From a virus: a stretch of 24,096 nucleotides of DNA. Of this stretch, positions 315 to 22,024 are shown one piece after another. Within the stretch, counting starts at the first letter, position 1. Every line of letters begins with the position of its first letter. The notes below the pieces were generated by a model. The model was given only the letters and a program-made list of their open reading frames with translations, had not been told where the DNA came from and did not search any database. The DNA lies in IMG/VR virus record IMGVR_UViG_3300029787_002349, positions 1 to 24,096 of that record. One strand, 5' to 3'. The translations under genes and the position numbers were made by a program.

Positions 315-1085
315 ATGAAAAAAGGACCAAATACAATTTACATAGGCTACGATCCTAAAGAACAGGTAGCCTATGATGTTTTAGAATTTACATTAGAACG
401 CACTGCAATAGAGCATATTCGCATAGTACCTTTACGAAAAGATCGTTTAGAACTTAATGGTTTATACACTAGAAAACATGACGTTGTTGATGGTCAAATG
501 ATTGATCAAATAGATGGTAAACCTTTTTCTAGTGAGTTTAGTTTCACACGTTTTCTTGTACCAGCTTTGCAGATGCATGAAGGTTGGGCATTGTATATGG
601 ATTGTGATATGTATCCACGTATAGATTTTAATACTTTATTTGAAGAATATAATTTAAACTATTATCCTTTATATTGTGTCAAACATAAATATGAACCGGG
701 TGATGGCGTTAAAATGGATGGCAGAGTTCAACAAAACTACTATAGAAAAAACTGGTCTAGTTTTGTTCTTTGGAATTGTAGCCATCCTCTCAATAGAAAT
801 TTAACACCAGAAGTTGTTAATACTCAAACAGGTCAATGGCTTCATTCTTTTGGTTGGTTGCCAGATAAAGAGGCTGACATTGGTTCTATACATGAAGAAT
901 GGAACTGGTTAGACAATCACTCACCTGAAGAAATTGAAGCTAAGAATGTACACTTTACCACAGGTGGTCCTTGGTTTAAAGAGTGGAAGTCTAGTAGAAA
1001 AATTGATGGTAAATATGCAGCAGAATGGAATTATGATTATACTCATCTTGCAGGAACAGGACAGATAAAACCTTATGAAATATAA
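315..1085 (+). CDS. GT8-like glycosyltransferase
   Basis: Predicted 256-residue cytoplasmic glycosyltransferase with a GT-A fold, expected to move a sugar from a nucleotide-sugar donor to a glycan or protein acceptor. Visible motifs: an N-terminal strand with GYDPKEQVAYDV (about residues 11-22), FTRFLVPAL (77-85), then ALYMDCDMYP with the metal-binding DXD as DCD (96-98), and near the C-terminus a VHFTTGGPWFKEW segment typical of GT8-like phage enzymes. The start is taken as the ATG at 315 because GGAGA lies at 306-310; the in-frame GTG at 279 lies inside the terminator stem and is unlikely. The gene overlaps the next one by 11 bases, which suggests coupled translation with the 793-residue multidomain protein. 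Donor and acceptor cannot be read from the sequence. Confidence 0.8.
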   Translation: MKKGPNTIYIGYDPKEQVAYDVLEFTLERTAIEHIRIVPLRKDRLELNGLYTRKHDVVDGQMIDQIDGKPFSSEFSFTRFLVPALQMHEGWALYMDCDMYPRIDFNTLFEEYNLNYYPLYCVKHKYEPGDGVKMDGRVQQNYYRKNWSSFVLWNCSHPLNRNLTPEVVNTQTGQWLHSFGWLPDKEADIGSIHEEWNWLDNHSPEEIEAKNVHFTTGGPWFKEWKSSRKIDGKYAAEWNYDYTHLAGTGQIKPYEI

Positions 1086-3456
1086 AGTAGTTACATGTTT
1101 TGATGAAACATTATTAAAACTTAATGGATCAAAACTAATAGAGCAGTTTGCCTCAAGCTGGCAACCTAGCATAGAATTTCATTGTTATTATTATAATTTA
1201 GATTTATCTAATTATTCTTTACCTAAGAAAAAGAATATTTACTATCATAATCTAAATGATATAGATGGCTTCCCTGAGTTTATGGAGCGCAACAAAACTC
1301 ATGATGGCACAGAAGATGGCAGTGTTCAATATAATTCTATCATTGATGTTATATCAGAAGGACCAAAAGTATTTGCTATAAGTGAGGAAGCATTTAAAGA
1401 TAGTAACTCTTGGCTATTCTGGTTGGATGCTAACTGTTGTACCGTAAGAGATATAAGATTAAATAGTTTAAAAACTATCTTTAGTGATGATTCTAATGCA
1501 TTGTCTCTAGCTTTAGTTGAACATAGAAACCATTTTGCTGGTTTTAATTTACAAAGCCAAGCTGTTGTAGAACTCCTTGCAGATATAAAAGGAGCATATA
1601 TTACAGATAGATTTACAGATTATAGGGAGTGGGGATTTAATTTTATACTAGGTTCAATACTACCTCTTTACCAAGCACGAGGTTTAAATTATAAATTATT
1701 TACAGAAAATAGTCTTGGTGTCTTAAATAATTTATTTGTAGATCTGCGTGACCCTGCATCTAAAAAACTTAGAGATGCTAAAGGTAATAGAATAGTTCCT
1801 TTATCTGACAAAGAAACATCACCAGATATCTTACCGGGAAGATACAAACAACTTGCAGATATAGTTAGGCACTACAAACCACAAACTATCTTAGAAACAG
1901 GAACATGGAATGGTGGTAGAGCTATAGAGATGTCTCTTGCTGCTTTTGAAAAGTCAGATAAAGTTCACTACATTGGTTATGATTTATTTGAAGATGCTAC
2001 ACCAGAGATAGATCAAGAAGAGTTTAACTCCAAAGCTCACAATACTTTAGCTGCTGTTGAAGCTAGACTAACAGAGTTCCAAGAGTTTGTTAAAAAAGAA
2101 AGACAAAAAGATTTTAGTTTTGAATTAACTAAGGGTAATGTCAAAGATGCACTCAATATTAAAGCAGATAATGATATTGATTTTGCTCTCATTGGTAGTG
2201 GTAATAGCTTCAATACCGTAGAGTATGAATATAATACTTTAAAAGATATACCTGTTGTTGTCGCAGATCATTACTTTACAAAGGATGAAGCAGAAGAAAT
2301 ACCACCTGATGCCTATCAAGGTGTTAACCAAGTATTTAAATCTGTCCCTACAAAAGAAGTAAAATCAGATGAAGTACCAGACGTAGATGGATGGATTACA
2401 TTTGATGATGCAGCTACCACTAGAAAATATGTGCTTCCCTCTAGTGATAGAGTTCTTGGAGGTGGCACTACACACTTAGCTGTATTCTTACATGATCCTG
2501 ATTTAAAAGATCTTCCAGAAGATGTTAAACGTGTTCCTATCGTAGTTCATCCTAGAGATTGTGTACCTAAAGATTATATTGTAAGTAATATACAAACCAA
2601 TATAAAAATGATAGGAGAAGACAACTGGGTATCTAAACATCCTCCTCATAGAGAAGTGGGTATTGTTGTATCTGCTGGCCCTTATTTAGATTGTGTAGCT
2701 CTAAAAGAGTTTATGCATACGTATTTAGCAAAAGGTATTAGACCTAAAATACTAACTGTTAAACATGCTTATCCTAATCTATTAAAGAATGGTATAATAC
2801 CGTGGGGATGTATTGTTCTTGATCCTCGTTCAATAGAAGGTAAGAGCACACACAATATTGTGCGTAAAGATTTGTTTAAAGATATAAATAAAGAAACTTT
2901 ATTCTTTGTTGCCTCTATGACAGATCCATCTGTTACTAAACATATTAAAGATGGTAATGGTAAAATATGGGGATGGCACGCTTTTACAGATTTCATGAGA
3001 CAAGAACAAGAACGAGGCACACAGATAGTAAATCAAACTGTGCAGCTTAACGAAGAGCTAGGTATACCGCAAGGTGCTACATTAATTACAGGTGGTACTT
3101 GTGCAGCTATGCGTGGTATTGGCTTAATGCACACGATGGGCTTCAGAGAGATACATCTCTTTGGCTTTGATTGCTGTCGTGAAGAACCAACAGCGGAAGA
3201 AAAGACAGAAACTACAGGTGATATAGAAGGTGGTGAAACACCTAAACCTAAATACATACAGGTCAATGTGGGAGATGTTACTTACTGGACTACAGGTGAG
3301 CTTTTGGCTATGGCTCAAGACTGTGAAAAAGTATTTGATGATCCCGGCCTTGACGGTGTATTAGAGTTTCATGGTGAAAATACAATGATATCAGCCTTGT
3401 GGGATATTAAACAAAGTAAGGAGAAACGTCCAGCGTTTAAAGATTATTATGCTTGA
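1075..3456 (+). CDS. Three-part protein: glycosyltransferase-like, methyltransferase-like and DUF115/MptE-like domains
   Basis: Protein of 793 residues that reads as three joined domains. Residues 1-225 look like a GT-A glycosyltransferase, with a WLFWLDAN segment (113-120) where the metal-binding D-x-D is expected and the second Asp is Asn. Residues about 250-450 resemble a Rossmann methyltransferase of the Methyltransf_24 type: motif I ETGTWNGG (274-281), IGYD (300-303), and FALIGSGNS (370-378) where the family usually has FIDGGHS. Residues about 525-793 resemble DUF115/MptE-like proteins (the family of Maf flagellin glycosyltransferases): IVVSAGPYLDC (530-540), GGTCAAMR (673-680) and GFREIHLFGFDCC (689-701). 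No signal peptide or TM segment is seen. It overlaps both neighbours, a glycosyltransferase and a methyltransferase, so a role in glycan building or glycosylation is likely. The DUF115 call is the firmest; the altered motifs leave activity of the first two parts open. Confidence 0.7.
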   Translation: MKYKVVTCFDETLLKLNGSKLIEQFASSWQPSIEFHCYYYNLDLSNYSLPKKKNIYYHNLNDIDGFPEFMERNKTHDGTEDGSVQYNSIIDVISEGPKVFAISEEAFKDSNSWLFWLDANCCTVRDIRLNSLKTIFSDDSNALSLALVEHRNHFAGFNLQSQAVVELLADIKGAYITDRFTDYREWGFNFILGSILPLYQARGLNYKLFTENSLGVLNNLFVDLRDPASKKLRDAKGNRIVPLSDKETSPDILPGRYKQLADIVRHYKPQTILETGTWNGGRAIEMSLAAFEKSDKVHYIGYDLFEDATPEIDQEEFNSKAHNTLAAVEARLTEFQEFVKKERQKDFSFELTKGNVKDALNIKADNDIDFALIGSGNSFNTVEYEYNTLKDIPVVVADHYFTKDEAEEIPPDAYQGVNQVFKSVPTKEVKSDEVPDVDGWITFDDAATTRKYVLPSSDRVLGGGTTHLAVFLHDPDLKDLPEDVKRVPIVVHPRDCVPKDYIVSNIQTNIKMIGEDNWVSKHPPHREVGIVVSAGPYLDCVALKEFMHTYLAKGIRPKILTVKHAYPNLLKNGIIPWGCIVLDPRSIEGKSTHNIVRKDLFKDINKETLFFVASMTDPSVTKHIKDGNGKIWGWHAFTDFMRQEQERGTQIVNQTVQLNEELGIPQGATLITGGTCAAMRGIGLMHTMGFREIHLFGFDCCREEPTAEEKTETTGDIEGGETPKPKYIQVNVGDVTYWTTGELLAMAQDCEKVFDDPGLDGVLEFHGENTMISALWDIKQSKEKRPAFKDYYA

Positions 3457-4129
3457 GTATATAGAAGAATATAGTAGAGATAACACATCTCAAAGATATA
3501 AAGATTTATTAAAAGAATATGAGAAGTTACATGCACTTGATGAAGGTATGTTTAACGGTAGAAGTTTAGTAAGATTTGCTGGACCACTTGAACAAATAAT
3601 TAACAAACATAAATGTGAAACACTGTTAGATTATGGTTGTGGTAAAGGCCATCCATATACAGATAAGTTTCATACAGTTCCTGACTCTGATTTCTTAGAT
3701 AAACCAATACATGAGTTTTGGGGTATAAAAGATATCACTTTGTATGACCCCGGTGAAGAAGAGCATAGTGAGTTACCAACTGGTGTTTATGATATTGTAA
3801 TATGCACTGATGTTTTAGAACATATACCACATGAAGATCTTACTTGGGTTATTGAAGAAATACTTAAATACTCTACAAACGTAGTATTTCTTAATATATG
3901 TTGTATACCTGCCATGAAACATTTTCCTAATGGTGAGAATGTTCATGTATCATTATATCCTGTTAAAGAATGGCTACAATTTATTGCTAGATTATCTATA
4001 GATTATCCATATCTAACTATCTATGTTTATGCAGATGACAAAGACAATGATAAGTATCGTTTAAATGCTTATAAAATAATACCAAGACCTACAATTATAC
4101 CACTCAAAACTAAGCCTGAAAAAGAATGA
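3449..4129 (+). CDS. Class I SAM-dependent methyltransferase
   Basis: 226-residue protein with a clear class I methyltransferase core: motif I LLDYGCGKG (59-67) for S-adenosylmethionine binding, LYDPG (98-102) at the end of strand 2, and YDIVICTDVLEHIP (114-127) covering motif IV and the following helix. A GENVHVSLYPVKEW stretch (162-175) matches the C-terminal part of phage methyltransferases of this kind. The substrate is unknown; the immediate glycosyltransferase neighbours point to a sugar or glycoconjugate, but DNA, protein or a small molecule cannot be excluded. The ATG at 3449 overlaps the end of the preceding gene by 8 bases, and the TGA stop overlaps the next ATG (ATGA at 4126-4129), so the gene is embedded in a translationally coupled run. 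Confidence 0.85.
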   Translation: MLEYIEEYSRDNTSQRYKDLLKEYEKLHALDEGMFNGRSLVRFAGPLEQIINKHKCETLLDYGCGKGHPYTDKFHTVPDSDFLDKPIHEFWGIKDITLYDPGEEEHSELPTGVYDIVICTDVLEHIPHEDLTWVIEEILKYSTNVVFLNICCIPAMKHFPNGENVHVSLYPVKEWLQFIARLSIDYPYLTIYVYADDKDNDKYRLNAYKIIPRPTIIPLKTKPEKE

Positions 4130-4446
4130 CTGTATTAAGATATAATAGATTTTATTATGATCCATTACCCAGTAATGTTAAGATTGATGAAAGTCCTATA
4201 CATGGTCATGGCATCTTTGCTAAAGAAGATATTAAATCTAAAACAGATTTAGGTTCTACTCATATTAAATATCCTATGATTGTAGGTTATATACGAACAC
4301 CTATGGGTGGTTTTATAAATCACTCAGATAAACCAAACTGTCATTTAATCATATCTCAAGATTGGGATGACTTTATAATTTATAACTTGGTAACACATAA
4401 AAAAATATTAAAAGATGAAGAAATACTTTTAGACTATGAAGTGTAA
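4126..4446 (+). CDS. Small SET-domain protein (putative protein-lysine methyltransferase)
   Basis: 106-residue protein that is essentially a minimal SET domain. The N-terminal part has ESPIHGHGIFAKEDIK (22-37), the usual opening strand pair of SET proteins. GGFINHSDKPNC (61-72) carries the NHS motif that forms part of the pseudo-knot and the S-adenosylmethionine site, and EEILLDYEV (98-106) supplies the conserved Glu and Tyr near the C-terminus. No post-SET cysteines follow. SET proteins methylate lysine side chains with S-adenosylmethionine; small bacterial and phage members have mostly unknown targets. It starts in an ATGA overlap with the methyltransferase gene and ends 11 bases before the holin gene, whose SD overlaps its stop. 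Family assignment is good, target unknown. Confidence 0.8.
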   Translation: MTVLRYNRFYYDPLPSNVKIDESPIHGHGIFAKEDIKSKTDLGSTHIKYPMIVGYIRTPMGGFINHSDKPNCHLIISQDWDDFIIYNLVTHKKILKDEEILLDYEV

Positions 4447-4954: not shown

Positions 4955-5304
4955 TGAAAGCAGGAAAAGTTTGGGGTGAGACACACTCTGTATTTAAAAA
5001 TGGTGTATTTGAATTTCACCATATAAAATTTAATAAAGGTAGTAAATGTAGTAAACATAAACACAAGTATAAGTGGAATGGATTCTATGTTACTAAAGGT
5101 AAACTAATTATTAGAGTATGGAAAAATGATTATAATCTTATGGATGAAACACTTCTCACAGAGGGTGAATGGACAACGGTAAAACCGGGAGAGTATCATC
5201 AGTTTGAAGCTGTATCAGATGGTGAAGCTCTTGAATTATATTGGGCTGAGTTTGACCATGATGATATTGAACGTGAGACAGTAGGAGAGGCTAGTGGCTC
5301 TTAA
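4954..5304 (+). CDS. Cupin-domain protein
   Basis: 116-residue small beta-barrel protein. Cupin motif 1 is seen as GSKCSKHKHKYKWNGFYVTKG (29-49), with His35 and His37 as likely metal ligands; the usual Glu position (42) is Asn. Motif 2 is VKPGEYHQFEA (76-86), with His82. It is all one cupin domain with an acidic tail. Single-domain cupins of this size include sugar isomerases, dioxygenase-like proteins and ligand-binding proteins; the nearby sugar-transfer genes make a sugar-related role reasonable but unproven. The start is the ATG at 4954 in a TAATG overlap with the upstream micropeptide; an in-frame TTG at 4936 is less likely. The end overlaps the start of the terminase small subunit by 11 bases. 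Confidence 0.75.
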   Translation: MKAGKVWGETHSVFKNGVFEFHHIKFNKGSKCSKHKHKYKWNGFYVTKGKLIIRVWKNDYNLMDETLLTEGEWTTVKPGEYHQFEAVSDGEALELYWAEFDHDDIERETVGEASGS

Positions 5305-5761
5305 TGAAAAGCAAGAGAAGTTTGCACAGTCCTACATATTACATCGTAATGCTACAGAGGCTGCAAAGAACGCTGGTTATGCTCCTGACTCAGCAGCTAA
5401 TCAGGGCTACCGTCTTATGCAGAATCAAGAGGTTGTTGATAGAGTCCACGAACTAGAGCAACAACTTGAAACAGATGTAGATGTTATAGGTGAATTAGAA
5501 AAACAGTATGAGTTTGCTAAGAACAACGGTCACTCAAATAGTGCGCTCAAGGCACTAGAGTTATTATCTAGAATACGTGGTGCTAATAGTGATGTCAATT
5601 CGGGGTTAGATAAAGACACACTAGAAACAGCTATTGTTGGGTGTCTTAATACATTAGGAGAAGATAAAGTTATTAATCTATTACAGAAGTGTGACTTTGC
5701 AAGTAACATATTTGAAGAGGGGGATATAGAAGAGGATGCCAAGGAAATGGAAAGTGTATGA
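5294..5761 (+). CDS. terS: Terminase small subunit
   Basis: 155-residue protein of the Terminase_2 type. The N-terminal DNA-binding helix-turn-helix is clear: LNEKQEKFAQSYILHRNATE (3-22), AAKNAGYA (23-30), then AANQGYRLMQNQEVVDRV (34-51). The middle is helical and probably oligomerises; the tail (about 135-155) is acidic and may contact the large subunit. Small terminases recognise the packaging site on concatemeric DNA and hand it to the large subunit. The start is GTG at 5294 with GGAGAGG just upstream (5284-5290), inside the end of the cupin gene. No large-subunit gene follows, which is unusual. Bases 5392-5436 have a near-copy in a structural gene on the other strand. Confidence 0.88.
   Translation: MALNEKQEKFAQSYILHRNATEAAKNAGYAPDSAANQGYRLMQNQEVVDRVHELEQQLETDVDVIGELEKQYEFAKNNGHSNSALKALELLSRIRGANSDVNSGLDKDTLETAIVGCLNTLGEDKVINLLQKCDFASNIFEEGDIEEDAKEMESV
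5392..5436 (+). repeat. 45-bp repeat, copy 1 (inside terS)
   Basis: This stretch matches the reverse-strand segment 13019-12975 at 42 of 45 positions, including an unbroken 22-base run at its start (5392-5413). It encodes AANQGYRLMQNQEVV of the helix-turn-helix region of the terminase small subunit, and the copy is read in the same frame in the other gene. The match was found by eye and counted base by base. Confidence 0.85.
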
Positions 5762-7569: not shown

Positions 7570-10500
7570 TACTCTTCTCCTTGTTCTTCTTGATTTGATT
7601 TTTGTATTTCTTCTGTATAAACTTTAGCAAGTTCTCCCATTAATCCAGTTGGGTTATATTGTCCAAACTTTTCTTGAAAAATATTTACTAAATTTTTATT
7701 TTCTGTTGGATTAAGAACATTTGTAGCAAAAGAACTGTTAAGTATTAAAGTAGCCTTATCAGAATTTTTTTGATACTGTGCATTAGGTCCAGCTATTGCT
7801 CTAATAACACGGTTTTTTCCAAATTTTTGAGCATTACCATTTAAATCTTGATAACTCATTTCTGAAAACAACTTCATTTTATTTTTTAATTTATTAAAGT
7901 TTTCTTTTTTTACTTGCATTTGTTCTCTATATTTATCTTTAATCTCATTAATAATTTCAGGAGTTATTTGTCTTGGTTTTAATTGTCGTAAATAACCCAT
8001 AAAAGCATTATCACTTAGATCTAATTTACGCATATCTTTATATACTGCATATCCTATAGATTTATTAAGATCATTTGTAGTAGTTCTTTGTCCTGTCGTT
8101 AACCAGCTAGTCATATCATTCATAGTTAATGGAAAACCATATGAAGTACGAGCTATATCTGCTACTTCTGAAGCTTTCATCTGATCAAAATATGCTCTAA
8201 CAGCTTGTGATGTACCCGGCTCTAATGATTCAGCAAGCTCAAGAACAAGACGTTTTGTATTTTCTAAATTTATTCCGGGTTGTTCTTCTGAAAATAAATC
8301 TCCATGACCAAGAGAACTTGCAGCAATATTAATAAGACCATCCACTACAAATTTTGGAGATGTATATGGACCTAAAATAGAACCAACTAATGCTTTAACA
8401 GAATCTTCTATATCTGTTTCAGTTACATTATCTCCACCAAGTATACGACCAATTAATCTAGTAGCTACTTTAGCAAAATCTAATGCATCATATTGTGAAG
8501 AGTTTGCATATCTAACAATTATTGTCTTTTGACCAGTTTTTTTATCTTCTACTTCTACAGCAGGTTTTAATATAAGGGGCTTAGCACCTCTCTGCCAAGC
8601 TCCTCCCATTTCTTCATAAGCTCTTAAATTTATTTTATTTTGTTCAGCAGAAGATCTTATAGGTTTACCATCATCATCATAATTATCAAGAGGCATTGCA
8701 GTTTCTGCTTCATTATTTGCATCTACAAAAGCATCTATACCATATGAAGTTGCTGCAAAACCTGATCCTCTTCTAACTCCTCGCTTTATTAATCTACCCC
8801 CTAGTTTTACATTACCTTTTTTAATTTCGTTTGCACCTTTTAATAAATCTAATGCTGAATATTTTAAAATATTTTTTGATGTTCGTACCATTTCAGAGGG
8901 AAATAATGCATACGTACCAACAGGTAATCTAGATAACATTCTAGCTCCCGGTGCTGCAACACTATATGAAGGCATAACATCACGAACTATTTGAGATGCC
9001 ATTTCAAATAACTCATCATCAGCAACAGTATTGCCATACATCTTTTTTAATTCACGATATTCTATTTCATGTGCTATTAACTTAGCATATGTATCAGGTA
9101 CACCATATGCTTGGCTTAATGAATCCATACCTTTTTTATAAGCTTTACCTAAAGGGTTATCTAATTTATCACCATATAAATTAATATTTTTACGAATAAG
9201 CTCTGCTGATAAATCACTATCTACAACACCTTGTTCTTTTAACTTTTCTAATCTTTGTAAAGCTTTTTTATTTCCTAAACGATACATTTCAAATACATCA
9301 TTAGTAGCTTGTCTAACAACATTATCTTTTCCAATGGCAGAAAAAATGTAGCCGTTAGCACCAAAGTTTTGAACAGCACCATAAGAGTTTACAACATACG
9401 CAGGAATATCAAGAACTGTTTGAGTGGCTTGACCATATGCTGCAATATTTGCTAGTGTATTTCCAAAAGCTCCTCCACCTAATTTTGAATTTGTCCAATA
9501 ATCTACACCATTCTCAAAATATCTGTAAAGAGCATCATCTGTATACATATCTTTTAAAAATACTCCAGAATCTTTAGCTGTTTTACCTAATTGTTTTTCA
9601 ACTAAATCTTCTAAATTTTTTGCTTGCCGTGAAGGTGGAATAGTTCCTTTTTTTCTTTTAATTGTAACTCTTTGTTTAGGTAGAAAATCTATTAATCCAC
9701 CTAACTCTATTGTTGCAGCATCATCCTCACCTTTTTGTAAAGCTTTAACAGCAAACTTATTTAATTCTGAAAAGTATTCAGAACTTTTAAGTAATTTTTG
9801 TTGAGTTATTAAAGTTTCACTCAATCTACCAAGAGCATCTTTTCTTTCACCTAATAGATTTAAAATAGGTTGATTTAGTTCCTGTCTTTTTTTAAGAGCA
9901 TTTAAAGCTTTACCTATGCTTGTTCCAGATTTAGGAGTAAGATCACCTAAAATTTTTGGTATATCTAAAATAAAATCAGTAGAGTCAGACTCACCAGCTA
10001 GTCTTCTAACTGTATGCACTATTCTATCATCAATTTGTTCTGCTGTTTCTTCAGGAAATTTTTTCCTAAATACTTTTCTAGCATCTTCTACTTTAGTTAA
10101 AAATTCTCCATCTAACTTACCTTCTGTGGCATCAATAATTTTCTTTAAATAAGCAGGATTATTATTAGCTTCAAAACTTCTTGTTATATAAAACTTACCT
10201 TCACCACGATTAACACCTAGTTTTTTATCTCCTTCTAAACCAAGCAAATCATTTAATCTATTTTCATTTGTTTTTATAGCATCCCCTACTTCTTTTAAAG
10301 CATCTAATACTTTAGTTCCTTGTAAAGAAGGTGCTATAGTTCCTTCATCAAGAAAATTATTAACATCTTCATCTGTAATTCTAGTACTCACTTTATTTTT
10401 AATTCTTTGTAGTGAATCCTTTTTCATTTCTGTTTCTAAATTTTTTATAAGACGTTTAACAGTTAAAGCAGAATTACTTCCCCTCTCTCTTTTTAATGCA

Positions 10501-11765
10501 GCATTAAATACTTCTTTGGGAAGACCAACATTAGATTTAAGAAATCTTCCTACTTTTGTATTTACTAATGCTACTATTTCTGTTATGTTATGCCTAACAG
10601 GTTTTTTAGGATCAACAACATCTGTTTCTTTTTCTAGTGATTTAACTTTTACTTTTTCTGTAGATGGAGCTTCATCTAATTCTTTACGAACAGCCGTTGC
10701 AATATTTTCAGCTTCTCTACCAACAGGAACTATACGACCTAAAACACCACCAGTTACTAATCCAAGACCTGTTGCTTTAGCTGCCTCTGCAACATTTATA
10801 TCTCTGTTTGGATCTGCAATAATTTGTTCACCTACATCAAAACCACCAGTATAAATACCACCAGTAACAGCACCAGTTCCTATATTTTTAGCTCGTAAAG
10901 CTCTAACAGCTTGTTTTTTTAGTTGATCATCTGTAACTTCTTCTACTTGTTTTTTGACAACTTTATCTTTACCTACATCTTTAACTGTTTCTTCAACTAT
11001 ATTTTTTTTAGCAAGCTGTTGTATTAGTTGATTTTTAAATGATAATTTAGCTGCTGTAGATGCAGCCTTACCACCAATTAATTTAGCTAATGCACCCACA
11101 CCTAAAGTACCTACTAAACCTATTATAGTTTCAGGAGCAAGAAAAGTATTTTTAACAGCACGTAAAAAACTTTTTACATCTGAGTCTGCAACCTCAAATT
11201 GTTTTAAAGAATCAGCCCATGCCTTCTGCTGTTCTGGAGTCATGTCTCCTATATTGTAAGCAGTTATTCCAAGGTTAGTTAAATCATTTCCTAGTTTAGA
11301 GTGACGATCCATAAACCAATCACCTATACTATCATAACCTTCTTCTTCTGGATCAAACTCTACACCGGGATTTTCTTGATTCCATACTATCTTAGCATTT
11401 TTATTCCACTCTTCATCTTTAGCTAAAGCAGATACATTTTTAGCCTCTTCTTCTTCTATTGCTTTTTCATATACTTCTTTACCTAAATCTTTAGTACGAG
11501 GTTGTACTTTAGATAAAGTATCAGCAGATATTCTACCTCTTGTTAGTCGTGCATACTCTCCTGATTCATCAAGAGGATCAGCTACTAAATCAAAATCTTC
11601 TTGTTTTTCTTTAGGTTCTTCTGAAGGAGTATCAACTGTTTTATCAGCAGATAAGTTTTCCAACATTGTATTTATATCTGTAAAACTCTCCTGTCTACCT
11701 TGAGAATTATCTGAAGGAGGAGTATCAGTTAAGTTTTCTAATATTGTATTTATATCCGTAGACAT
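7569..11765 (-). CDS. Large internal virion protein (probable DNA-ejection protein)
   Basis: 1398-residue protein, the largest in the window, at the end of the structural block. The N-terminus is acidic and holds a duplicated motif, TDINTILENL (3-12) and TDINTMLENL (29-38). Glycine-rich hydrophobic segments follow at about 212-232, 285-300 and 330-350, of the kind seen in internal proteins that enter the host membrane. The long remainder is helical and lysine-rich, with coiled-coil parts in the middle (about 400-560) and at the C-terminus. The last third loosely recalls large polyvalent phage proteins. No transglycosylase motif was recognised. By analogy with T7 gp15/gp16 and P22 ejection proteins, it likely sits inside the capsid and leaves with the DNA; this is inferred from size, composition and position. 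Confidence 0.65.
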   Translation of the reverse strand: MSTDINTILENLTDTPPSDNSQGRQESFTDINTMLENLSADKTVDTPSEEPKEKQEDFDLVADPLDESGEYARLTRGRISADTLSKVQPRTKDLGKEVYEKAIEEEEAKNVSALAKDEEWNKNAKIVWNQENPGVEFDPEEEGYDSIGDWFMDRHSKLGNDLTNLGITAYNIGDMTPEQQKAWADSLKQFEVADSDVKSFLRAVKNTFLAPETIIGLVGTLGVGALAKLIGGKAASTAAKLSFKNQLIQQLAKKNIVEETVKDVGKDKVVKKQVEEVTDDQLKKQAVRALRAKNIGTGAVTGGIYTGGFDVGEQIIADPNRDINVAEAAKATGLGLVTGGVLGRIVPVGREAENIATAVRKELDEAPSTEKVKVKSLEKETDVVDPKKPVRHNITEIVALVNTKVGRFLKSNVGLPKEVFNAALKRERGSNSALTVKRLIKNLETEMKKDSLQRIKNKVSTRITDEDVNNFLDEGTIAPSLQGTKVLDALKEVGDAIKTNENRLNDLLGLEGDKKLGVNRGEGKFYITRSFEANNNPAYLKKIIDATEGKLDGEFLTKVEDARKVFRKKFPEETAEQIDDRIVHTVRRLAGESDSTDFILDIPKILGDLTPKSGTSIGKALNALKKRQELNQPILNLLGERKDALGRLSETLITQQKLLKSSEYFSELNKFAVKALQKGEDDAATIELGGLIDFLPKQRVTIKRKKGTIPPSRQAKNLEDLVEKQLGKTAKDSGVFLKDMYTDDALYRYFENGVDYWTNSKLGGGAFGNTLANIAAYGQATQTVLDIPAYVVNSYGAVQNFGANGYIFSAIGKDNVVRQATNDVFEMYRLGNKKALQRLEKLKEQGVVDSDLSAELIRKNINLYGDKLDNPLGKAYKKGMDSLSQAYGVPDTYAKLIAHEIEYRELKKMYGNTVADDELFEMASQIVRDVMPSYSVAAPGARMLSRLPVGTYALFPSEMVRTSKNILKYSALDLLKGANEIKKGNVKLGGRLIKRGVRRGSGFAATSYGIDAFVDANNEAETAMPLDNYDDDGKPIRSSAEQNKINLRAYEEMGGAWQRGAKPLILKPAVEVEDKKTGQKTIIVRYANSSQYDALDFAKVATRLIGRILGGDNVTETDIEDSVKALVGSILGPYTSPKFVVDGLINIAASSLGHGDLFSEEQPGINLENTKRLVLELAESLEPGTSQAVRAYFDQMKASEVADIARTSYGFPLTMNDMTSWLTTGQRTTTNDLNKSIGYAVYKDMRKLDLSDNAFMGYLRQLKPRQITPEIINEIKDKYREQMQVKKENFNKLKNKMKLFSEMSYQDLNGNAQKFGKNRVIRAIAGPNAQYQKNSDKATLILNSSFATNVLNPTENKNLVNIFQEKFGQYNPTGLMGELAKVYTEEIQKSNQEEQGEE

Positions 11766-11773
11766 AATTTTAT

Positions 11774-14143
11774 TTAACTTTCATTTAGTGCTTCATTTAA
11801 AATTTTAACAGATATCTTTAGTTCTTTAGCTTTTTTTGCTATCGCTATTTTTTTCTGTCTATTAGTTTTACCTTTAATTTGATCTTTAAGTCGGGGAATA
11901 AGTATATTTGTAAAATTATCTCTTGCCTTTTGAGTTCTTAATGTGTTTTTAAATTCAGCTAATGTCGTAGGAGAGGTAGCAGCAAACTGGGACGGTCGTT
12001 TTGCTAATTCTCCACTTGCAAAAATCATTGCATCTCTTTGATTTTCAGTGCTTGTTGGTCCTAGTTCTTTTAACTTTTGAAGATATAATCTTTCATACTC
12101 ATTTTTTCTTTTTATCATTTCTCTAAAAGCAGGAGAATTTTGTGATAAAGCTGTTCTACCTTCAATTAAACCTATATCTCCATCCGCAGTTATCCTGTAA
12201 CCATATTGACTAACAACGCTATCTAAACCCTGTCTTAAATTTGAAGTAAATGCAGCACCTTTAGATGGAGTACCTTTTCTATCTTTTGCTGCTTTAGCTT
12301 TCTGAGCATCTATTTCTGCAATCGTCTTCTGCTTTTTAAGAAGTCCATCAGAAGCGGTATCAATTGCCTTTACTACGTTAGTAGGTATATTTGCTTCTGT
12401 ATTTGCAATAGTAGTTTTTAGGTTAGCTATTTCAGCCGCTATCTTATCTGCTTTTTCATCTTGTCCCTTCTGTCTTAGATCTTGCTCTTTTAATTGTTTT
12501 TGTTTTAGTGTAGCAGTATCAATAGCAGCTTTTCTTACTAACTTGTATTGATCTTTTTCTGCTTGTGATTCTCCTTCAGCGTATTTAGACATTGTTAATG
12601 CAAGAAGACCTACTGCACCAAACCTACCTGCATCTTCATCTAATACTGCATTTTGAGCAGCAGTTATCCCTGCCTCTTTAGGATCAATAATTTGTTTAGC
12701 TGCTTCAGGATTAATAATATCTAGTGTATCTTTATTTATTTTACCTAACTCTTCTAAAAACTTTTTATCTCTTTTTTTAATATTATCTAGAGCTTTAGAA
12801 GACCGTTGTTTAAATCCATCTAAAGCCTTTTGGGCTATATTAGCAGTTTCTTGTTGTTTTGCCAGTTCTAAAGTTCCTCTAAATTTAACATTCTTTTCCT
12901 GTTGACTTGTAAGACCTAAACCCTTTGAACCTATTTCAAGTGCCTTTTGTCCTAATCCAGTTCCGGGTATAAGCACAACCTCTTGATTGTCCATAATACG
13001 GTAGCCCTGATTAGCTGCTTTACCTGCCATTGATCTTTTAACTAGAGGTAAAGCACTTGCTAAACCACCACCCATCTTACGACTTACTTGTCCACCTTCA
13101 GCGGAAAAAAGGAAAGGAGAAACTCCACCACCCGGTCCAAATCCAGTTGGTCGTCTTGGCCTTCTATCTCTAAGACCTTCTAAACCTAAACCAAATACTT
13201 GTTGTGTTGGGGTTGCACTTGGTTTTGTTGTTCTTTCTGTTTTTGATATTGCTTTAGTAAATGGACTTCCTGTTACAAAGCCACTAAGTCTAGCAAGTTC
13301 TGTAGGAATAAATTCATCTTCTTCTAAAAATCTAGCATAGTCTTCTGATAATCTTGCTTGCCTAAATTCTCTATCTTCTTCTCCCAAACTTTTTAATAAT
13401 CCAAATTCAGCTAGTCCTGTATCTAATCTTTCTTTTCCTATATCTCGTGCCATTCCTGACGCATCTAATAGATCTCCAGCTATTGTTCTTCTACGGCTAC
13501 CTTCATCTTTAAATTTACCATATGCATCTTGAAAAGCCTTTTCTCTTCCAATAGCTTCAATATCTCCAAGTTGCCTACTAAAAGCATCGCCAAGTAATGA
13601 AGCTTGAACACCAGCACGACTGCCAAGACCAGACATACCTCCAGCAGATACTGCTTGTTTTTCAAACTGAGGTAATACTCTTTGTTGGAAATCTTCTTGA
13701 GCTTTTCTTTTTTGAACATCTAGAACAGCACTTAAATATGGACTTGCAAATTTATCAGCAACATCAGCCGTAAATTCAATATCTATATCTCCTATATCAT
13801 CTTTATATACACCAATATCTTTTTCATATTGATCTATATATGGAGTTTGTGTACCCACTAACGATTTTAATCCTGCTATTGCATCTAGTTCATCTTTACC
13901 TAAATCAGCAATAGTTGATTTTTCTTCTCCAACTTCTATCATTTTAGTAGGATCATCAGGATCTGGAACTGTTGTTACACCAAATCTTGCACGACCTCTT
14001 TTTGTACGGCCTTCATACAACTTTATAGCATCATCTATAACTTTTTTAGCTCCCGGCCTTATCTCTTCTGGGAGTTGTTGCGTTGTTATTTGAGTTGATG
14101 TTGTACGTTCTGGTTTACCAAAAAGAAAATCCATTAAGCTCAT
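11774..14143 (-). CDS. Large structural or internal virion protein (789 residues)
   Basis: The N-terminal part (1-300) is helical with many charged residues (MSLMDFLFGKPERTTST at the start, then KRKAQEDFQQRVLPQFEKQA around 145-165), typical of phage internal or tail-assembly proteins. A glycine-rich hinge follows (about 330-375, FGPGGGVSPF and KMGGGLASALPL), then AANQGYRIMDNQEVVLIPG (376-394), and a long Lys/Gln/Ala-rich helical half with coiled-coil character. The segment 376-390 is nearly identical to part of the terminase small subunit at both protein and DNA level. An AGGAT sequence upstream and close spacing to the preceding gene support the ATG at 14143. The position next to the 1398-residue protein suggests that the two are partner internal proteins. 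No enzyme motif is seen. Confidence 0.65.
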   Translation of the reverse strand: MSLMDFLFGKPERTTSTQITTQQLPEEIRPGAKKVIDDAIKLYEGRTKRGRARFGVTTVPDPDDPTKMIEVGEEKSTIADLGKDELDAIAGLKSLVGTQTPYIDQYEKDIGVYKDDIGDIDIEFTADVADKFASPYLSAVLDVQKRKAQEDFQQRVLPQFEKQAVSAGGMSGLGSRAGVQASLLGDAFSRQLGDIEAIGREKAFQDAYGKFKDEGSRRRTIAGDLLDASGMARDIGKERLDTGLAEFGLLKSLGEEDREFRQARLSEDYARFLEEDEFIPTELARLSGFVTGSPFTKAISKTERTTKPSATPTQQVFGLGLEGLRDRRPRRPTGFGPGGGVSPFLFSAEGGQVSRKMGGGLASALPLVKRSMAGKAANQGYRIMDNQEVVLIPGTGLGQKALEIGSKGLGLTSQQEKNVKFRGTLELAKQQETANIAQKALDGFKQRSSKALDNIKKRDKKFLEELGKINKDTLDIINPEAAKQIIDPKEAGITAAQNAVLDEDAGRFGAVGLLALTMSKYAEGESQAEKDQYKLVRKAAIDTATLKQKQLKEQDLRQKGQDEKADKIAAEIANLKTTIANTEANIPTNVVKAIDTASDGLLKKQKTIAEIDAQKAKAAKDRKGTPSKGAAFTSNLRQGLDSVVSQYGYRITADGDIGLIEGRTALSQNSPAFREMIKRKNEYERLYLQKLKELGPTSTENQRDAMIFASGELAKRPSQFAATSPTTLAEFKNTLRTQKARDNFTNILIPRLKDQIKGKTNRQKKIAIAKKAKELKISVKILNEALNES
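12975..13019 (-). repeat. 45-bp repeat, copy 2 (inside the 789-residue structural gene)
   Basis: Reverse-strand near-copy of 5392-5436; only three bases differ. Two codons change (CTT to ATT, CAG to GAC), giving Leu to Ile and Gln to Asp, and the reading frame is the same. Similarity stops sharply on both sides. Confidence 0.85.
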
Positions 14144-19166: not shown

Positions 19167-21752
19167 TTATTCACTCTTTTCTGGCTCAACAATTACTTTT
19201 CCATTATCATCAGTCCACTCCGTTGCAAGCATATGCGGATCTTTTCTTTCGCCCACCACAATCCAACTAATCGTGTCTGTACAAGAATTATCTTGTGCCT
19301 GGATTGTTAGTGTTGCTCCAGATACACTACCTTTAACAGCTATCCAACCAGTTTCATTACTGGTAAAACATTGTACATCAGTACATAATGCTTCAAATGT
19401 TCCACTTGTCATACCCGACGCAGTGTCTATATTAACTGTCGCAGAGCCTGATGATAAAACAACCTTACCTCTATAAATTAAATCTGCTTGTGGACCTTCA
19501 ATAAACGAATGAACTAGGTAATGTGTATCTTTTTTACTCGTAAGTGGGTGATCAATTTTGAAAGAGCCTGAACCTTTAGACAACGCACCCGTGATGTCTA
19601 CGGCTCCAGCGGAGGAAATAGTCATTCTTTCCCCACCGTTTGTATGAAACCGCAAACTGTTTCCATTGTGCTTATATTGAATTAATCCCGCTGTATTTGA
19701 ATCTGGATCTGCAAAGGCTATTATAGAATCAAAATTCGCAGCAGCCGTTAGGAGCAATTGCACACTACCACTTGAGTTTGCAACGTGGAGTGGGTATCCA
19801 CTTACACCAGTGGTTGTTCCTATATTTACTCGTTGGCTACTATCAATACGCAAGGCTTCTGTATCGTTAGTTGATAACCTAATAAGACCAGCATCACGAT
19901 TAGCTATTTCAAAATCTGCTGATGAGCCAGCGAAGGTGTATCCTATTTTTACACCATCTGTTACAGCAGAGTCTGCACGATCAAAAGATATTCTTGCTAC
20001 AGGATTTGCAGATCCTGTGTCTTTCATAGTTAAAATAGCATCATTGGTTGCACTTGTTGTTCCAATTCCAACTACACCTGCTATATTAACTGCACCACTT
20101 ACTGATACAGCACCTTCAAAAGTTGCTGCACCTGCTACAGTAACAGTGCTATTAAGTTGAGTAGCACCACCTACAATTAATGCTCCACTAACAGATACGT
20201 CATCTTCAAACTCTGCTTTGCCTGTAGCTAAGAAAGTGCCACCTATAGATGTGTTACTATTTACATTTAAAGTAGAAGCAAGTGAAACTGCACCACCTAT
20301 TGTTGTTGTCCCACCTATATTAACATTGCCACTAACAGATACATTACCATCAAATGTAATATTACCTGTGGTAAATAATGTACCACCTACAGAAACATTA
20401 CCTGCCACATCTATATTTCCAGAAACTGATACACTATCTTCAAATATAGCTGCTCCAGCTACAGTTACAGTAGATGCTAAATGTGTTGCACCGCCTACAC
20501 TTAATGTAGAGGCTAGGCTAACTGCACCAGCAATAGTAGTAGTGCCGCCAATATTAACATTACCTGATACGGATACATCGTCTTTAAATTCAGCCTTACC
20601 TGTTGCTAAGAAAGTACCACCTATAGAAGTATTACCAGTTACATCTAAAGTTGATCCTAAACTTGTGGCTCCTGCTATTGTAACAGTGCTTGCAAAATTA
20701 GATGCCCCTGCTACACTTAAAGTAGAAGCTAAACTAACTGCTCCTGCTATAGTGGTAGTTCCACCTATATTAACATTACCACTTACTGATACATCATCGT
20801 CAAAAGTAGCAGCACCAACTGCTAAAAATGTTCCACCTATAGAAGTATTTCCTCCTACATCAAAAGTTGAACCTACTGTTAATGCAGCAGATACTGCTAA
20901 ACTACCACCAATTCTACCATCAGTAATAATAGAAGCAGCTATACCTGTAAGATTAGAACCATCTCCAAAATATGCTGATGCACAAACTCTAGCATTAGTA
21001 GCTTGAATATTTGTACCAGCTATTGTAACAGTACCACCTACATTAAGATCACCACTAACAGATGTATCTCCACTAAATCCTGCATTACCTGTAGCTCTAA
21101 ATGTGCCGCCAACTGAAGCAGAAGTAGCTACATCTAATCTACCACTTACTGATACATCATTATCAAATGTAGCTTTAGAGGTAAATGTACTAGCACCTGC
21201 TACATTAAATGTGCCACTTACGGATACATTATTATTAAATATAGCCGCACCTTCTACAGTTACTGTGCTACCAAAGTTAGCTGCCCCTGATACAGATACG
21301 TCATCTTTAAATACAGCTTTACCTTCTACTGTAACTGTAGAACCAAAGTTTGCTGCACCACCTACTGTAACAGTTGATTTTAAATGTGTAGCTCCTACTA
21401 TAGTAGCAGTGCTAGATACTTGTAATGTCCCACCCACTACAGCATTACTAACTGATATATTACCTGCTATTACAGCAGTAACACCTGTTATATTTGAACC
21501 GTCTCCATAAAATGCAGAAGCACATACTCTATTATCTACATGAAGATTACTATCAAGAGAAACAGAACCAGTAACTCCTAAAGCACCACTAACTTGTACA
21601 GCATTAGTTGCAACTTTAAGTGCTGTGTTAGTACCATCTCCTGTTTGTATTGGTTTAAGAGATGTATCTACACCTTCATTACTAACAGCAGAACTTACAA
21701 GTATAAGCTGTTTATAAGTGTTTGAAATAAGTCTTCCTGTTAAATCTGTCAT
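19167..21752 (-). CDS. Tail fibre protein built of many short beta repeats
   Basis: 861-residue protein if started at the ATG at 21752, which overlaps the upstream stop as ATGA; a TTG at 21764 would add four residues. The N-terminus (TDLTGRLISNTYKQLILVSS) is probably the tail-attachment part. Residues about 95-560 are made of repeated turns such as GGTFLATGKAEFKDDVSVSG and STLSVGG; VSVSG occurs nine times plus one TSVSG variant. Two boxes VCASAFYGDGSNITG and VCASAYFGDGSNLTG interrupt them. Residues 561-700 hold GIGTTSATND and LRIDSSQRVNIGTTTG, as found in many phage fibres, and the C-terminal 100 residues form a separate domain ending EWTDDNGKVIVEPEKSE. It is expected to form an elongated trimer that binds the host. 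No S74 chaperone motif was recognised. Confidence 0.82.
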   Translation of the reverse strand: MTDLTGRLISNTYKQLILVSSAVSNEGVDTSLKPIQTGDGTNTALKVATNAVQVSGALGVTGSVSLDSNLHVDNRVCASAFYGDGSNITGVTAVIAGNISVSNAVVGGTLQVSSTATIVGATHLKSTVTVGGAANFGSTVTVEGKAVFKDDVSVSGAANFGSTVTVEGAAIFNNNVSVSGTFNVAGASTFTSKATFDNDVSVSGRLDVATSASVGGTFRATGNAGFSGDTSVSGDLNVGGTVTIAGTNIQATNARVCASAYFGDGSNLTGIAASIITDGRIGGSLAVSAALTVGSTFDVGGNTSIGGTFLAVGAATFDDDVSVSGNVNIGGTTTIAGAVSLASTLSVAGASNFASTVTIAGATSLGSTLDVTGNTSIGGTFLATGKAEFKDDVSVSGNVNIGGTTTIAGAVSLASTLSVGGATHLASTVTVAGAAIFEDSVSVSGNIDVAGNVSVGGTLFTTGNITFDGNVSVSGNVNIGGTTTIGGAVSLASTLNVNSNTSIGGTFLATGKAEFEDDVSVSGALIVGGATQLNSTVTVAGAATFEGAVSVSGAVNIAGVVGIGTTSATNDAILTMKDTGSANPVARISFDRADSAVTDGVKIGYTFAGSSADFEIANRDAGLIRLSTNDTEALRIDSSQRVNIGTTTGVSGYPLHVANSSGSVQLLLTAAANFDSIIAFADPDSNTAGLIQYKHNGNSLRFHTNGGERMTISSAGAVDITGALSKGSGSFKIDHPLTSKKDTHYLVHSFIEGPQADLIYRGKVVLSSGSATVNIDTASGMTSGTFEALCTDVQCFTSNETGWIAVKGSVSGATLTIQAQDNSCTDTISWIVVGERKDPHMLATEWTDDNGKVIVEPEKSE
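20070..21467 (-). repeat. Tandem beta-repeat region of the fibre gene
   Basis: Imperfect coding repeats of roughly 24 residues and larger compound units. Three units contain NVNIGGTTTI followed by a GAVSLASTL segment, and three contain NTSIGGTFLA. Units identical in protein differ at many synonymous positions, for instance 20495-20577 against 20713-20795. Confidence 0.8.
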
Positions 21753-22024
21753 ATTAGCTGCCAAAATTTTTCTGTTGAATCATAAGTGCTTGCTGCTTGA
21801 TCCCATGTTAGATTTCTACCTGTATCATCTGGTCTTGGATTTAGTATTGCAGGGTTGTCTCTAACATCAGGTACTTTATTTTGTGGATGATTTTTTAAAT
21901 CGTATTGTCCTTCATAATCTTCTGGGCATACTAACATACCATAGCTATTTAATCTCATTGCACGGTGTGGATAAACAAACCCACAAATGTCACACATAGC
22001 TAAAGCATTTTTAGTACTTGCCAT
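21749..22024 (-). CDS. Zinc-ribbon-like small protein
   Basis: 91-residue protein with CDICGF (11-16), then SYGMLVCPEDYEGQYDLKNH (27-46). The layout C-x2-C, 18 residues, C-x2-D resembles zinc-ribbon proteins of phage structural regions, which usually have C-x2-C in the second pair; here the fourth ligand would be Asp36 or a nearby His. The rest is a proline-rich, polar C-terminus that ends STYDSTEKFWQLI. It starts in a TAATG overlap with the gp4-like adaptor gene and ends in an ATGA overlap with the fibre gene. Possible roles are head completion or assembly; nothing more can be read from it. Confidence 0.65.
   Translation of the reverse strand: MASTKNALAMCDICGFVYPHRAMRLNSYGMLVCPEDYEGQYDLKNHPQNKVPDVRDNPAILNPRPDDTGRNLTWDQAASTYDSTEKFWQLI

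Follow-up and report, generated by a model that had tools for sequence, protein, structure and literature searches.

A short stretch of the terminase small subunit gene copied in frame into a putative virion protein gene of a bacteriophage

Two unrelated proteins encoded on one stretch of viral DNA, the terminase small subunit (TerS) and a 789-aa putative virion protein, have a nearly identical peptide. This raises the question of how the peptide came to be present in both and whether it does the same work in both. We analysed the whole stretch of 24,096 nt (hereafter the window; IMG/VR record IMGVR_UViG_3300029787_002349) together with related viral loci. The features concerned are listed in Table 1.

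Table 1. Positions of the donor, the recipient and the inserted stretch in the window
Feature	Position	Strand	Basis
789-aa putative virion protein gene, recipient	11774..14143	-	open reading frame; homologues in 69 viral loci
42-bp in-frame insertion TAATCAGGGCTACCGTATTATGGACAATCAAGAGGTTGTGCT relative to L001/L002	12972..13013	-	DNA alignment of relatives
8-nt microhomology AGCAGCTA at the entry junction, common to the recipient site (as in relatives) and terS	13012..13019	-	DNA of relatives
Terminase small subunit (TerS) gene, donor	5294..5761	+	Pfam Terminase_2, E=1.3e-15; PHROG 51 TerS, E=2.6e-18
Donor stretch in terS, AGCAGCTAATCAGGGCTACCGTCTTATGCAGAATCAAGAGGTTGT, coding the second part of the helix-turn-helix	5392..5436	+	DNA match, alleles of relatives, solved TerS chains

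A terS stretch within the virion gene

The TerS protein of the window matches the solved TerS chains 21di, 4zc3, 2cmp and 3zqp, and alignment to the solved domains places the segment of interest in the second part of the helix-turn-helix (HTH) region. A TerS model has helices at residues 31-41 and 45-77; the helix assignment is partly read from this model, which is poor, and the AlphaFold models of both TerS and the virion protein have a mean pLDDT of only 47-48. Two further genes were noted. A small SET-domain protein (4126-4446, E=3e-9) adjoins a methyltransferase gene in a plus-strand gene block, and a 793-aa protein (1075-3456) gave a weak partial match (E=6e-4) to PseD, a flagellin modification protein, which falls far short of the curated cut-off.

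The sequence-only reading had labelled the recipient an internal virion protein; no known family was matched in Pfam, PHROGs, NCBIfam or PDB. No Pfam, PHROG or PDB match to Terminase_2 or a complete HTH was obtained either, the protein containing the second HTH part only, and it is not a TerS homologue. Its first ~375 residues are conserved and are followed by a variable linker which holds the insert. Homologues were not found in the phage collection or in genome contigs. The 3' part of the gene and a 1398-aa gene together form a swapped cassette (7585-12374) in comparison with the related genome G001: the flanks of the cassette are 91-95% DNA-identical to G001, whereas between the large protein and the corresponding 1596-aa protein of G001 the identity is only ~24%.

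DNA comparison of terS 5392-5436 (plus strand) with virion gene 12975-13019 (minus strand) gave 42 identical bases out of 45. A distance of 7.5 kb separates the copies, which are on opposite strands, and outside the matched stretch the similarity drops at once to background. When the codons of the peptide are compared, AANQGYRLMQNQEVV (TerS residues 34-48, 5393-5437, plus strand) and AANQGYRIMDNQEVV (virion protein residues 376-390, 12974-13018, minus strand) are identical at 41 of 45 nt. The match pointed out by the sequence-only reading therefore holds, with its position correct to one base, and extends to the DNA. Two codons do carry the nonsynonymous differences it described (CTT>ATT and CAG>GAC), but these amount to three nucleotide changes, and a synonymous one (GTT>GTG) has to be added. 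Identical codons number 12 of 15, compared with 6.2 expected from the codon usage of the window if the same peptide had been coded independently (P ~1e-4), and by chance 0 matches to the shared 44-nt pattern would be expected. A scan for near-identical stretches found no other dispersed repeat this strong within the window, the internal repeats of the fibre-like gene aside. The latter gene (19167-21764) has many degenerate repeats at spacings that are multiples of 18 bp, and its length differs among relatives (865 vs 1149 aa).

The relatives reveal how the virion gene acquired the stretch. In the near relatives L001 and L002, GGTAAAGCAGC is joined directly to TATACCCGGA, the sequence after the joint continuing TATACCC, and the peptide is absent. 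In the window, the order is GGTAAAGCAGC, TAATCAGGGCTACCGTATTATGGACAATCAAGAGGTTGTGCT, TATACCCGGA, a clean insertion with homologous virion sequence resuming on both flanks. The first 39 nt of the insertion align with terS with 3 mismatches and the last 3 nt do not; its edges are uncertain by a few bases because donor and recipient share sequence there. The left flank is identical between relative and window at 87 of 90 positions, the virion proteins of L001 and L002 are ~69% identical to that of the window over most of their length, and terS of L002 agrees with that of the window at 452 of 465 nt. The more distant relative L021 and the other aligned virion homologues also lack the peptide. A wide scan yielded 69 loci encoding the virion protein; with at least 32 of 45 bases of the terS stretch required for a second copy, none of them carried one, nor did any other locus examined, and no other viral-contig record with the insert or its exit junction was found. 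The insertion is thus seen in one record only, in scans that may omit records near-identical to the window. When the insertions relative to G001 and G006 are compared, repetitive genes aside, no other has a strong distant template: this one scores 30, most others 8-13.

The direction of copying follows from the same comparison. All 10 relatives keep the stretch in terS, where the protein is nearly invariant across the segment, and the stretch is part of the Terminase_2 domain, whereas the virion homologues are without a copy; the copying therefore went from terS into the virion gene. The reverse direction is ruled out by the presence of the stretch in the TerS of every relative and by its place in Terminase_2, and an ancestral peptide that was lost in the relatives is ruled out because none of the homologues carries it. 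That the peptide was copied from TerS, as had been proposed from the letters of the window, agrees with the insertion seen against the relatives and with TerS as the only sensible donor, and survives the comparison of homologues that had been suggested as a check. At all 7 codons that vary among the relatives, the copy agrees with the terS allele of the window itself, and the allele of no other relative matches it at all of them. The TerS of another phage is hence a less likely donor.

Junctions and a route of insertion

At the entry junction, the recipient site and terS have the 8 bases AGCAGCTA in common; at least 8 shared bases at a random breakpoint pair have a probability of ~4.5e-4. The exit junction has no clear microhomology and contains an extra GCT that terS does not supply. 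This may be a duplication of the GCT of the target, or a target duplication plus one base.

We consider it very likely that the insert originated in a single templated insertion, primed by microhomology while phage DNA was being replicated or repaired, and that a variable and probably disordered linker tolerated it; the insertion site is gappy in the homologue alignment and coil in the poor model. In such an event, a 3' end in the virion gene, either growing or broken and with AGCAGCTA as its last bases, would pair with the same 8 bases of terS on the opposite strand, either in the same genome or in a sister copy within the infected cell. About 39 bases of terS would be copied before the end went back to the virion gene, and this return would leave the three bases GCT, untemplated or derived from the target. 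The insert would then have drifted after its entry. Since 42 is divisible by three and the frame was open, the virion protein gained 14 residues.

A microhomology-primed template switch is the best explanation of the entry, the orientation, the persistence of the donor and the size of the insert. The separation of 7.5 kb exceeds that of classic quasipalindrome switching, and an event in trans or at a broken end is therefore needed. We infer a polymerase template switch in preference to the capture of a terS fragment at a break; such a capture may be another route to the same product, and the two are not separable here. With 42 bp, no ORF of its own and a single occurrence, the insert does not have the features of an IS, an intein or a homing element.

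Possible roles of the inserted peptide and other explanations

The peptide corresponds to the end part of one HTH helix and the beginning of the following one, and the virion protein is without the first HTH helix. In the virion protein model, the segment lies in an extended coil from ~323 to 398 with a very low confidence (pLDDT ~27). The copy has four changes, three of them nonsynonymous (neutral expectation 78%); they look neutral, although four changes cannot prove neutrality. Most likely the peptide is a tolerated passenger, and of the readings offered from the letters of the window, that of a possible relic fits best; the peptide probably has no function.

Functional mimicry would mean that the piece of TerS was kept because it binds the DNA site of TerS, or TerS or TerL, thereby linking packaging with virion assembly. 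The insert is in frame and read in the TerS frame, most residues are preserved, and in TerS the segment belongs to the DNA-binding domain. The frame match, however, is explained by a microhomology that is itself in frame together with filtering for an open frame, and the partial HTH, the coil, the absence of the peptide from all other virion homologues and the neutral-looking substitutions, compared with a near-invariant TerS segment, make mimicry very unlikely. We also give little credence to the more specific idea that the virion protein has kept part of the TerS DNA-recognition region and copies or competes with the contacts of TerS to DNA or the large terminase; contact with the same DNA or partner, as raised in the sequence-only reading, is not borne out. 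The structure prediction that it had proposed does place the segment outside a TerS-like HTH in the virion protein, but with so poor a model this is weak evidence.

The stretch might instead matter as DNA, for instance as a pac site bound by TerS, with the second copy acting in cis. Copying did occur at the DNA level, and pac sites are frequently located in or near terS. However, the synonymous variation of the donor stretch is ordinary for terS (0.135 vs 0.167 in the rest of the gene; 33rd percentile of 15-codon windows), which argues against an extra constraint on the DNA, and no relative has the second copy, so that a duplicated site is hardly to be expected. Still less credible is a chimera formed during assembly or amplification of the metagenome contig. 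Strand-displacement amplification commonly yields inverted chimeras (PMC9484634) and a single record carries the insert, but homologous virion sequence stands on both flanks, the reading frame is intact, and there are 3-4 differences between insert and terS, which a fresh chimera would not show. Finally, chance or convergence, for which the shortness of the peptide might speak, is ruled out by the codon-level identity, far above that expected, and the precise insertion.

A second pair and comparison with known systems

In the related genome G009, a 31-nt stretch occurs on opposite strands at L053:4932-4962 (minus) and L053:18106-18136 (plus) with 30 of 31 bases identical. It encodes KDWNNLQFWE in a head/neck-like protein of 226 aa, which is conserved, and MDIKDWNNIQFWE where a 60-aa gene begins; L135, the sole other homologue found of that small gene, differs at the N-terminus. 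We take this for a probable second case of such copying, although its direction is less certain. The two cases together suggest that such events happen repeatedly within this phage group and supply new peptide segments. The window provides a base-resolved phage example of a short in-frame gene piece placed into another gene on the opposite strand at a microhomology; our literature search found no paper on this kind of event in phage evolution. It also cautions against inferring a common function whenever two unrelated proteins have a near-identical peptide.

The source of the peptide is the TerS DNA-binding domain (Pfam Terminase_2; 21di, 2cmp, 3zqp), of which the virion protein has a 15-residue piece only. 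The insertion resembles MMBIR-like templated insertions (PMC8421209) in its short insert from a distant locus, the junction microhomology and the unchanged donor. The cases found of the latter are mostly eukaryotic, whereas here a bacteriophage is concerned and microhomology exists at one junction only. Short inverted template switches have been described for E. coli (PMC7202029), for coding genes of yeast (PMC8604942) and, in vitro, for the replisome of phage T7 (PMC9484634). Like the present case, quasipalindrome switches (E. coli, PMC7202029, PMC6357072; yeast genes, PMC8604942) involve inverted copying between short matches and yield multi-base coding changes, but they use nearby inverted-repeat arms, while here 7.5 kb separates the sites and an entire block of 14 codons has been added.
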